From contig NZ_CP132294.1 of the NCBI RefSeq assembly GCF_030734285.1, positions 1,240,001-1,304,000 of the forward strand: a stretch of DNA of 64,000 nucleotides, in the 5' to 3' direction. This document shows, one piece after another, positions 56,668 to 60,855 of the stretch. Within the stretch, counting starts at the first letter, position 1; each line of letters opens with the position of its first letter. The DNA is from Natronococcus sp. AD-5. GTDB taxonomy: Archaea; Halobacteriota; Halobacteria; Halobacteriales; Natrialbaceae. The notes under the pieces were generated by a model. That model did not search any database and had not been told where the DNA came from. It worked only from the letters and a program-made list of their open reading frames with translations. Made by a program: the position numbers and the translations under genes.

Positions 56668-58254
56668 TTACGCCGCAACCCAGACGTTCGTCGCAGCAAC
56701 CGACGTGAACTGGACGTTCTCGTTCTGCTGCATGCTCACTTGCGCGGCGTTAGCACTGCCACCGTCGTCAGCCACTGCCAGCGCCAACTGTTGCTCGTTG
56801 ATGTTCTGTTGGGTAATGAACTGGTGCTGTTCGATCTCCGCGCTCGCGTACTGTTCGACGTCGTGCGTCTGATCGTTGTTCGCGGTGTCGTAGTCGTACG
56901 CCACACCGGCAGCGCCCTCGACGTCGTTCCCGTCCACGGTCACCGACGTACTCGTCGTCTGCGTGATGTCGTCGTGAGCGTAGCTCGGCCCTGCGTAGAC
57001 GTTGAGCGCTGACGCGTAGCCGATCTGCGCGTTCACGTTCTGCTGGTAGGCCCACTGGACGGCGGTCGCGTCACTGTCGTTCGTGGCGACCGCCATCGCG
57101 GTGTTCTGCAGGTTGACGTTGAGCTGTTCGACGGCCTGTCCCTGGGTCACTTCGGAGGTCGCTTCCTGCGAGATGCCGCCCTTGTCGGCCTTGGTGTCGT
57201 CGCCGCCGGTCGTCGATCCCTGCGTCGAGACGACGTCGCCGTGGCCGCTGCTCGCGACGTTCATCCCGGGCATCTCGGCGAGGACGTTGACGGCCTCGGC
57301 GGAGCCGAGCTGCTCGTTGATGTTGGTCTGCTCGGTGATTTGGATGGCCGTCGCGGTGCTGTCTTCGCCGACCGCGATGGCGACGGCGGCACCCTGTTCG
57401 TTGACGTTCGCCTGTTCGACGTCCTGCGCCTGCTCGACGATCGCAGTCGAGCTCTGGCTACCGTCGGGACCGCTCGCTCCCTTCTTCGGCTTGTCGCTGA
57501 ACTCGCCGTCGCCGAGGTAGACGTTGGACGCGTTCGCGGCGCCTTCCTGCAGGTTGTGGTTGGACTGCTCCGTCTGCTGGAGGGCCGTCGCTTCGCTGTT
57601 GTTCGCGGCGAGCGCGAACGCGGTGCTCTGTTCGTTAACGTTCGCCTGACTGACCTCTTGGGCCTGCGTGACGGCCGCCTCAGCCTCCTGGGTCGCGGTC
57701 AGTTCGTTCTTGTCGCCCTTGGTATCGTTGACGCCCCAGCCGTTGAACTCCTGGCCGTCACCGTTACCGAAGACGAGGTAGACGTCGCCGACGTCCTCGA
57801 ACTGGGTCTCCCGCACCTGGCCCCGGTCGTTCTCGGCCGTCGCTTCGCCCTCCTGGACGTTGGAGTTCAGCTGACTGGCCTCCTGCACGGCGGTCGCCTC
57901 TCCACCGTCGATGGAGATAGAGGTCGCCATGCCCTGTTCGTTGATGTTTACCTGCTTAACGTTCTGATACTGGACGACGTCGGAGACCGCTTCCTGACCT
58001 TCGATCGAGGGCCCGGGGTTGTTGGCTACGTGCGCGTCCAGGAACTCTTCGAGCGATTGATCCTCGAGATCCGCGCCGAAGACCAGGTACAGCTCCTCGC
58101 CGTCCTCGAGTACGTGAACCGTTTCGTCGGCGTTCTCATCGGCAGCGTCTCCTGCCGTGACTGCCGGTGCACCGACGGCCAGCATCGATATGGCGACGAT
58201 ACAGGCCATCAGAATTGTCGTAATTTGTGATCGCGTCGTACGTTGGTTTGTCAT
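56668..58254 (-). CDS. Secreted protein with five curlin-like repeat blocks
   Basis: This 528-residue protein has a Sec-type signal peptide (about 1-34). Five blocks of 45-52 residues follow, centred near 94-140, 195-246, 273-325, 369-420 and 474-526. Each block has two half-units of the form Q-x3-Q-x-N-x-N-x-Q with alternating Ala (NVNEQ, NINEQ, ATAVQ, ATALQ). The regular Gln/Asn ladder and alternating small residues resemble curli subunit repeats and imply stacked beta-strands. No cysteines remain in the mature part. There is no lipobox, LPXTG or PGF-like anchor. No secretion partner is adjacent. Amyloid formation is inference. Confidence 0.85.
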   Translation of the reverse strand: MTNQRTTRSQITTILMACIVAISMLAVGAPAVTAGDAADENADETVHVLEDGEELYLVFGADLEDQSLEEFLDAHVANNPGPSIEGQEAVSDVVQYQNVKQVNINEQGMATSISIDGGEATAVQEASQLNSNVQEGEATAENDRGQVRETQFEDVGDVYLVFGNGDGQEFNGWGVNDTKGDKNELTATQEAEAAVTQAQEVSQANVNEQSTAFALAANNSEATALQQTEQSNHNLQEGAANASNVYLGDGEFSDKPKKGASGPDGSQSSTAIVEQAQDVEQANVNEQGAAVAIAVGEDSTATAIQITEQTNINEQLGSAEAVNVLAEMPGMNVASSGHGDVVSTQGSTTGGDDTKADKGGISQEATSEVTQGQAVEQLNVNLQNTAMAVATNDSDATAVQWAYQQNVNAQIGYASALNVYAGPSYAHDDITQTTSTSVTVDGNDVEGAAGVAYDYDTANNDQTHDVEQYASAEIEQHQFITQQNINEQQLALAVADDGGSANAAQVSMQQNENVQFTSVAATNVWVAA

Positions 58255-58869: not shown

Positions 58870-59610
58870 TTACGTCTCCTCCACCGGGTGGCCGATCAGT
58901 CGTTCAACCGCCGTAATCGGTTCGCGGATACGGCCGACCAGCGTCGGGTCGCCGTACCGAACGTACCGATACTCAGGAATCGACTGCAGTTCGCGAAAGA
59001 GCTCCGTGAACGCGACGAGATCGTCCGTCTCGAAGTAGGTGATGAAATCCGCGTCATCCACGCCGCTGGCGTGGTAGAGCTGGCGCCGAACGCGGTCGAG
59101 GTACTCGAGCGTCGGCTCGACGTGATCGCGCATCAGTTCGAGCCGGTCCTCGTCCGACAGCGTCCACCAGTCGGCGGTCTTCCGGGCCGGAATGACGATC
59201 GCATACTGCGGCGGTTCTGGACCGTCGTACGTCGCCGCCTCCAGTTGGGTCTCGAGGTCGGGCGCGTCCGGCGTGTACACGGGCTCTCGGACGATTCCGA
59301 CGAACCGAAACGTTCGCCGGGAGTGCGCGCCGAGCGCCGTCCGGCGGAACGTCCGCAGAAACGCCTGCGCGGTCGCCAGTTCGCGAGCGTGGACCCGCAG
59401 CAGGTAGTCGGTCCCGCTCGTCAGCCCCTCGGTCACGTAGGCGTCTACGAGAACTCGATTCTCGTAGTCGGCGAGGAGATCCGCGATCTCGTCCGAAACC
59501 TTCGTCGGTGATTCCTCCCGCTCGCTCCTCCACGTCGGGTCGAGCGCGAACGCGGCGAACACGCCGAACACGCCCGTTTCCTCAAGCATCGGTGCACCGT
59601 GACTGGACAT
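58870..59610 (-). CDS. Chlorite dismutase-like heme-binding protein
   Basis: This 246-residue cytosolic protein of the chlorite dismutase/HemQ superfamily has YLLRVHARELATAQAFL, the PARKTADWWTLSDEDRLELMRDHV segment and late DFITYFETDDLVAFTELFREL plus VGRIREP. Haloarchaeal members bind heme and have been linked to heme synthesis. It lacks the extra monooxygenase domain of PitA-type fusions. ATG 59610 was chosen; 59589 is an alternative. Confidence 0.82.
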   Translation of the reverse strand: MSSHGAPMLEETGVFGVFAAFALDPTWRSEREESPTKVSDEIADLLADYENRVLVDAYVTEGLTSGTDYLLRVHARELATAQAFLRTFRRTALGAHSRRTFRFVGIVREPVYTPDAPDLETQLEAATYDGPEPPQYAIVIPARKTADWWTLSDEDRLELMRDHVEPTLEYLDRVRRQLYHASGVDDADFITYFETDDLVAFTELFRELQSIPEYRYVRYGDPTLVGRIREPITAVERLIGHPVEET

Positions 59611-59757
59611 GATGCGTGTCACGACGGCGACGGACAAACCGTTGGTGGAGGTCCTCGGGTCGGTCCGATCGGTCCCCCTTGCGGGGAGAGATTTCCCTGT
59701 ATTGGATGGGTTACAAGACGATAATGGCTTCAGAAGTCCTCGGCGAACTGCGCTCCG

Positions 59758-60855
59758 TCAGCGACCGAAATCAGCGACGTCGGTGTCCTTCTTAAACGGC
59801 CACTCGAGGCCGATGGACTCTTTCCGTCGGTAGGAGTGTGTCATAGAATCCATCTCATAGCTTGAGTTTCTCACAGCCCGGATCGTCTCCTCGCTCGTAG
59901 TTGGTGATTGCAATGACGAGCCGTAGGCACAATGCCAGGAACACTGCTGCGTTCGTGCGTGGACGCGGCCTCGGGCGCGGACGTACCCGAGGCCGCAGTC
60001 CTTGCAGGCATCGTTGGTTCGCTCAACTCCCGCCCGGCGGTTGTACGTCTCGTCCAAGACGGATTGTTTGAGCTGAACGTCTTCTCTGTGTTCTTCGATC
60101 CGGTCTTGGACCCTGTATTCGATGTTTTTCGGCTCGTCAGTGTTTCGCGGATTGTACGGGGCGACTGGCACGATCCCTGCGGTCAGCAGGAGGTCGTGCC
60201 AGTCAAGAATATCGTAGGCGCTGTCTCCCAGCATCCAGATCGGCGTTTCGACGGCGAGCGCGTCACACGTGACGCGCATCGGCGTCTCTTGGGATGTTTG
60301 TTTGGCCTGTGTGAACTCCGCTGCAATCGGGATCTTTGATCCGGTTGAGACGATCGTACAGCCGAAGCCGTAGTAGTACTCTTCGGCTGTTGAATCGTAG
60401 TTCCACGAGGCAGCGTTGTTGTACTGAATCGCTTCGATGTGGGTCGAATCGATGGAGTATGTCGAGTTGAGCAGGCCGCGGAAGGCGGCCTGTTCGACGA
60501 GTCGGTCGAAAACATCGTCGATAACGTGTTCGAGGTCAGTGAGAAATCGCTCAATCGTATCTCTAGACGGCGGTTTGGTGAGTCCGCAGTAGTACCAGAC
60601 AAGCGCGTGCTGGAGTTCACGTGTGACCGGTCGTGTGCCGTAGATGTTCTTGTAATAACAGTGTAGAAAGCCGCGAAAGAGATCCGGTGGCTTGTGTACT
60701 CGTGTTCGCCCCCGCTTCGAGGGGACGAACACGTCGTACTCTAGCAGAAACCCGAACTCAAGATGTTCGAACAGCGACACTGTCTCGGTAGCCGCCGCAT
60801 TCAAGAACTCGTCTACCGAAGCCATGTCTTGCAGGGTTGCGGTCGTGCTGGACAC
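59758..60855 (-). pseudogene. IS5-type transposase gene, frameshifted near its 3' end
   Basis: The frame encodes most of a haloarchaeal IS5-family DDE transposase (PPDLFRGFLHCYYKNIYG, YSIDSTHIEAIQ, MLGDSAYDILDWHDLLL, LDETYNRRAGVERTND). After RVHART the reading diverges; the usual ending (VFLALCLRL ... AITNYERGDDPG) appears in another frame. This fits a 2-nt insertion near 59945. The original stop is at 59855-59857. The shifted frame reads on through the left IS end into host DNA until 59758. GTG 60855 or ATG 60825 may start it. Probably inactive. Confidence 0.8.

Follow-up and report, generated by a model that had tools for sequence, protein, structure and literature searches.

Proteins with conserved Gln/Asn ladders as a candidate two-component extracellular system centred on Natrialbaceae

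What is the 528-residue protein encoded near the end of the window, i.e., the whole stretch of 64,000 nucleotides of Natronococcus sp. AD-5 DNA analysed here, and does its striking ladder of Gln and Asn residues make it an archaeal relative of the curli subunits, as an earlier note on this DNA had suggested? The gene (c0 below, a label that we also use for its family) starts with an ATG and occupies 56668-58254 on the minus strand, with its stop codon at 56668-56670. The earlier description of five blocks, each with two half-units of the form Q-x3-Q-x-N-x-N-x-Q behind a Sec signal, was borne out: beyond a Sec-type N-terminal signal with an AxA-type cleavage site (recognised by eye), we counted 10 exact units at residues 97/124, 199/226, 277/305, 373/400 and 478/505, which fall into five pairs with a spacing of 27-28 residues inside each pair. 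Shuffles retaining the composition of the mature chain have a mean of 0.0075 such units and a maximum of 1. The mature chain is also as acidic as had been claimed, with 81 Asp and Glu versus 10 Lys and Arg and a pI of 4.05. The gene is made up of the following parts:

58153..58254, minus strand: Sec-type signal peptide, residues 1-34; cleavage by eye at APAVTA|GD
58003..58152, minus strand: N-terminal non-repeat segment, residues 35-84, with the conserved EELYLVFGAD
57817..58002, minus strand: block 1, residues 85-146; ladder units at 97 and 124
57697..57816, minus strand: inter-block segment, residues 147-186, with a second YLVFG-type motif (FEDVGDVYLVFGNGDGQEFNGWG)
57511..57696, minus strand: block 2, residues 187-248; ladder units at 199 and 226
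57463..57510, minus strand: variable linker, residues 249-264
57274..57462, minus strand: block 3, residues 265-327; ladder units at 277 and 305; the input of structure prediction
57175..57273, minus strand: variable linker, residues 328-360
56989..57174, minus strand: block 4, residues 361-422; ladder units at 373 and 400
56860..56988, minus strand: variable linker, residues 423-465
56671..56859, minus strand: block 5, residues 466-528; ladder units at 478 and 505; the C-terminus, with no PGF-CTERM here

Sequence searches of Pfam, NCBIfam and the PDB with c0 returned no match, and sequence-profile searches of the PDB gave nothing below an E-value of 0.08. Relatives are nonetheless widespread: a protein search recovered them from 99 of 125 Natrialbaceae genomes, spanning 26 of the 29 genera and mostly in single copy, with the full-length proteins being 42-88% identical. 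A profile search of 242 Halobacteria genomes placed c0 in 48 of the 61 sampled Natrialbaceae and in 3 genomes from two further families, while most of the non-Natrialbaceae families sampled had no c0. Among relatives with a name, that of Natronococcus pandeyae is the closest (84% identical), and its locus was the only one to come from the scan of genome contigs. Relatives also occur on plasmid records of Natronorubrum, Natrononativus, Haloterrigena, Haladaptatus and Halomicrococcus; none was found in the viral contigs and phages searched. Databases annotate the family solely as ‘hypothetical protein’ or ‘PGF-CTERM sorting domain-containing protein’, and no paper on it was found among the open-licence PMC literature.

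These relatives furnish a direct view of what selection has retained. The ladder is the best-conserved part of these proteins: across 58 sequences the 50 ladder positions have a mean identity of 97.7% to the window protein as against 48.2% for the interleaved positions; homologues without the ladder, which had been set beforehand as the observation that would speak against the proposal, were not found, and each of the 30 best homologues retains about ten ladder units (9 in one). In an alignment of 36 sequences the invariant columns are mostly ladder Gln/Asn or an alternating small residue; outside the blocks they include Y56, F59, G60 and A61 of the EELYLVFGAD motif, and in the inter-block segment F152, V155, F170, G172 and W173 are invariant or nearly so. 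These patterns support very strong selection on the Gln/Asn ladder. Inside the two half-units conservation has a period of two residues, with an autocorrelation of -0.33/-0.47 at lag 1 and +0.37/+0.42 at lag 2, a rhythm that was not found in the linkers of c0. Such periodicity points to beta-strands with one buried or packed, and hence constrained, face. In the first half-unit the alternation extends from about -10 to +17, apart from one slip behind the final Gln, and in the second from -6 to +18; the intervening turn, rich in Asp, Asn, Gly and Ser, spans only about four residues. Given an unbroken two-residue rhythm and so short a turn, the most natural reading of a block is a pair of long beta-strands connected by a tight turn. 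Moreover, as Q-x-N-x-N-x-Q is palindromic, the two ladders of an antiparallel pair could face each other. A two-coil beta-solenoid within each block is disfavoured, since the alternation continues unbroken for more than 20 residues per half-unit and leaves only about 4-5 residues for the return; solenoid-like packing between blocks, as distinct from within one block, is not excluded.

Structure prediction is consistent with this reading. An AlphaFold model of the 63-residue block 3, made with ten block sequences, has strands at 5-29 and 38-61 (pLDDT 65, pTM 0.25), i.e., a long hairpin in agreement with the conservation argument, though weak by itself. The earlier note had proposed structure prediction as a check for a beta-solenoid; at low confidence, the fold of the model leans towards the hairpin and against a solenoid of stacked beta-arches. 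The full-length protein, modelled from a two-sequence alignment only, reached a pLDDT of 28. Foldseek with the block model gave no match at E<=0.001 and returned generic long hairpins only. Mean-field couplings from 229 blocks (effective number 96) have their strongest pair at +13/+25, which is compatible with the hairpin turn; in the same set neither an antiparallel nor a parallel register was prominent.

We then asked how this organization compares with that of curlins, whose unit combines N-x-Psi-x-Psi-x-Q with an XGXX arc in 22-23 residues and forms a beta-arch (PMC10192328). Read as two long strands, a block differs from two such arches. The PF07012 curlin profile has no match to the window protein at E<=1, nor to 36 orthologues at E<=0.1, nor in the organism's own genome. 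The curlin kernel X6QX10Q is depleted, with 1 occurrence observed versus 5.2 expected from shuffles, and the full a-arc-b motif occurs 0 times; the same motif scan counted 4 in CsgA, 3 in CsgB and 10 in an archaeal curlin as positive controls. The proposed profile comparison of the repeat block with curlin repeats likewise came out negative, with hhalign aligning a single column, as against a probability of 97.7% for block versus half-unit. The earlier observation that no CsgE/F/G-like partner accompanies the gene extends well beyond the locus: CsgG, CsgE and CsgF (PF03783, PF10614, PF10627) were each found in 0 of 41 genomes, with a positive E. coli control. A true CsgA/CsgB homologue that diverged in archaea, for which the Gln/Asn/Ala ladders and an [S/G]-x-A-x-A-x-Q stretch resembling half a curlin motif before each second ladder might be cited, is on these grounds very improbable and already largely refuted, and with it the ‘curlin-like’ relationship of the earlier note. 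By the analysis above c0 is not a curlin by sequence; it may still work like one.

Separately, two haloarchaeal genomes of one Natrialbaceae genus encode a different secreted protein with genuine curlin-type repeats (L072 1303-2037, minus strand; L073 994-1614, plus strand). These proteins have about eight to ten 19-residue repeats of the form QxGxxNDADVDQ and score above the Pfam cut-off. One archaeal protein with curli-like repeats is already mentioned in an early curli survey (PMC3521004).

The conserved neighbourhood, which the earlier note had suggested examining across haloarchaea, yielded a partner. In other genomes one to three genes for small secreted proteins (c1) are divergently transcribed from c0, and this adjacent, divergent arrangement is seen in 23 of 30 loci with the Sec-type c0. 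The c1 proteins are roughly 95-265 residues long (mostly 115-180), carry the signal sequence MKRxLxITLTVALIGSLMFMGFAGTAAA and comprise about one block with the half-unit typical of c0. A half-unit profile built from c0 proteins, run against all genes called in the retrieved loci, matches essentially c0 and c1 only. The RefSeq annotation of Natronorubrum bangense independently displays the divergent pair, with both genes labelled ‘hypothetical protein’. The two families also co-occur: all 13 sampled Natrialbaceae genomes without c0 are also without c1, and about 45 of the 48 with c0 have a separate small ladder protein among the matches listed, these counts being drawn from related genomes and hence not representing independent events.

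In the window genome the pair is split. The syntenic c1 (C1:1326068-1326451) lies outside the window, at a distance of 28 kb, where it keeps LarC and CDC48-type genes as its customary neighbours; the DNA separating it from c0 holds a transposase-like gene as well as a cluster for polysaccharide. Three further copies bring the c1 complement to four. Directly upstream of c0, where other genomes have c1, the window has a chlorite-dismutase/HemQ-like gene (58870-59637) followed by a gene that is transposase-like by sequence (59758-60855). In genome L032, of the same genus, c0 and c1 are unsplit; the same polysaccharide genes flank the pair at one end and LarC/CDC48 at the opposite end. In most genomes the flanks of the pair are housekeeping genes, LarC/CDC48 and a RadB type. 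We assigned LarC and CDC48 by sequence, and for RadB the RefSeq annotation of Natronorubrum bangense agrees. An additional protein of 206-212 residues, with an N-terminal hydrophobic segment, two WGxV...DTGxTxVxV repeats and a weak GYD-domain match, adjoins c1 in several genomes including that of the window (L093 11232-11849; L039 6417-7046; L058 12779-13399; L061 8167-8802) and is a candidate third component of the ladder system.

Flat regular ladders serve as ligand-binding faces in, e.g., some antifreeze proteins, and in the window c0 abuts sugar-nucleotide and acyltransferase genes. Hence, one could envisage the flat Gln/Asn ladder as an exposed face that binds a polysaccharide, a mineral or an ice-like surface and is coupled to the neighbouring exopolysaccharide genes. 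This polysaccharide neighbourhood is, however, not conserved, the usual flanks being the housekeeping genes named above; it is therefore a local feature that offers no clue to the function of c0, and we rejected a function read from it. As the ladder shared with c1 also suits mutual packing better, we regard ligand binding as an unlikely role.

Six of 58 c0 orthologues end in a PGF-CTERM tail preceded by a D/K-rich stalk, and a further orthologue has PGL instead; the Pfam PGF-CTERM model (PF18204) matches 5 of the 36 orthologues scanned, with a best E-value of 2.1e-7. The C-terminus of the window protein has no PGF motif, transmembrane segment or basic tail. The adjacent c1 is missing in 5 of the 6 PGF-CTERM orthologues (anchored orthologues, mostly without an adjacent c1, are found at loci L037, L038, L047, L059 and L065). 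In a paralogue group that is 43% identical and keeps the ladder, a twin-arginine-type signal, KRRGYLxG, replaces the Sec signal, and these proteins are probably exported folded, which argues against a curli-like route of unfolded secretion for that group; large genes with this signal occur at loci L052, L053, L054, L055, L063 and L068. Together, the signals and the PGF-CTERM tails point to an extracellular or surface-bound c0.

The same features could fit a folded surface protein that does not polymerise, with the five blocks forming a stiff rod or stalk rich in beta-structure, which might resemble an adhesin or be associated with the S-layer, and the c1 proteins acting as its small secreted binding partners. 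PGF-CTERM behind a charged stalk, PGF-CTERM proteins named as such in RefSeq and the Tat-type signal of one paralogue group all agree with such a rod, as does the constant number of blocks, since many fibre proteins vary freely in repeat number. The anchor is, however, missing from most orthologues, and the half-unit common to c0 and c1 suggests pairing of like with like; we therefore consider the rod a possible but rather doubtful interpretation.

Our favoured explanation is that c0 and c1 are the two components of an extracellular beta-ladder system that probably has a structural role or assembles by itself, although our confidence in it is only about evenly balanced. Under this proposal c0 would be the large subunit, with each block folding as a pair of long antiparallel strands and the Gln/Asn ladder sitting on the packed face. 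Through the ladders, blocks would pack along their edges or their faces, in a single chain as well as across c0 and c1 chains, with c1 acting as a minor subunit, cap or nucleator, and the stacked ladders would yield a cell-surface layer or a matrix fibre. In some species c0 would be tethered to the membrane via the charged stalk and the PGF-CTERM anchor. As an archaeon has one membrane, export of c0 would not need outer-membrane secretion machinery. Going by its sequence, a matrix, surface or fibre role for c0 is plausible, and we infer that it may form fibres or amyloid. Several findings count against this explanation: the acidic excess would oppose stacking of c0 at low salt, most PGF-CTERM orthologues have no adjacent c1, and the Tat-type paralogues, the low-confidence models and the couplings without a register weigh in the same direction.

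A more specific and more tentative version is that Natrialbaceae and a few other haloarchaea have their own two-subunit functional amyloid, unrelated to curli, with five hairpins in c0 and one in c1; c1 would then nucleate or cap a fibre that serves as matrix or outer coat without a dedicated secretion channel. One hallmark used for functional amyloids, repeats with conserved Asn/Gln ladders, is present in c0. If c0 does form fibres, it would represent a separate origin of Gln/Asn-ladder assembly, one that operates at high salt in an archaeon lacking an outer membrane. Staining of Haloferax volcanii biofilms with amyloid dyes has been reported without a demonstrated gene (PMC4180959); the widely conserved, usually single-copy c0 and the conserved c1 supply concrete genes for direct testing.

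Among known systems, the archaeosortase substrates with PGF-CTERM (PF18204) share their tail and charged stalk with the anchored minority of c0 orthologues, but not with the window protein or most others. The sheath protein SH of Methanospirillum hungatei is an extracellular beta-strand protein that forms an amyloid-like layer around the cell (PMC10593813). It resembles c0 as an archaeal extracellular beta-strand protein, the strands of c0 being predicted, and differs in its beta-arches, helical cap and place in a methanogen sheath, a distinction drawn from its description alone. FapC of Pseudomonas has a few long, imperfect repeats of about 35-40 residues with variable linkers and a conserved Asn/Gln core, and the major and nucleator proteins FapC and FapB are related to each other (PMC12392863). 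Fap thus parallels c0/c1 in long repeats split by variable linkers and in two proteins sharing a repeat, whereas its three repeats, Greek-key layer and operon set it apart; its published motif, compared by eye only, also differs. The curli subunits CsgA (major) and CsgB (minor) are likewise secreted repeat proteins in which small residues accompany inward-facing Gln/Asn ladders, and here too the repeat is common to a larger and a smaller protein; a matrix role for c0/c1 is presumed. In c0, unlike in curli, the Q-x3-Q-x-N-x-N-x-Q unit lies on predicted strands about 25 residues long, within 60-residue blocks separated by linkers; CsgE/F/G are lacking, and the comparisons above revealed no relationship in sequence. 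Set beside these systems, the c0 family looks like a separate, unnamed family of self-assembling or surface-coat proteins.
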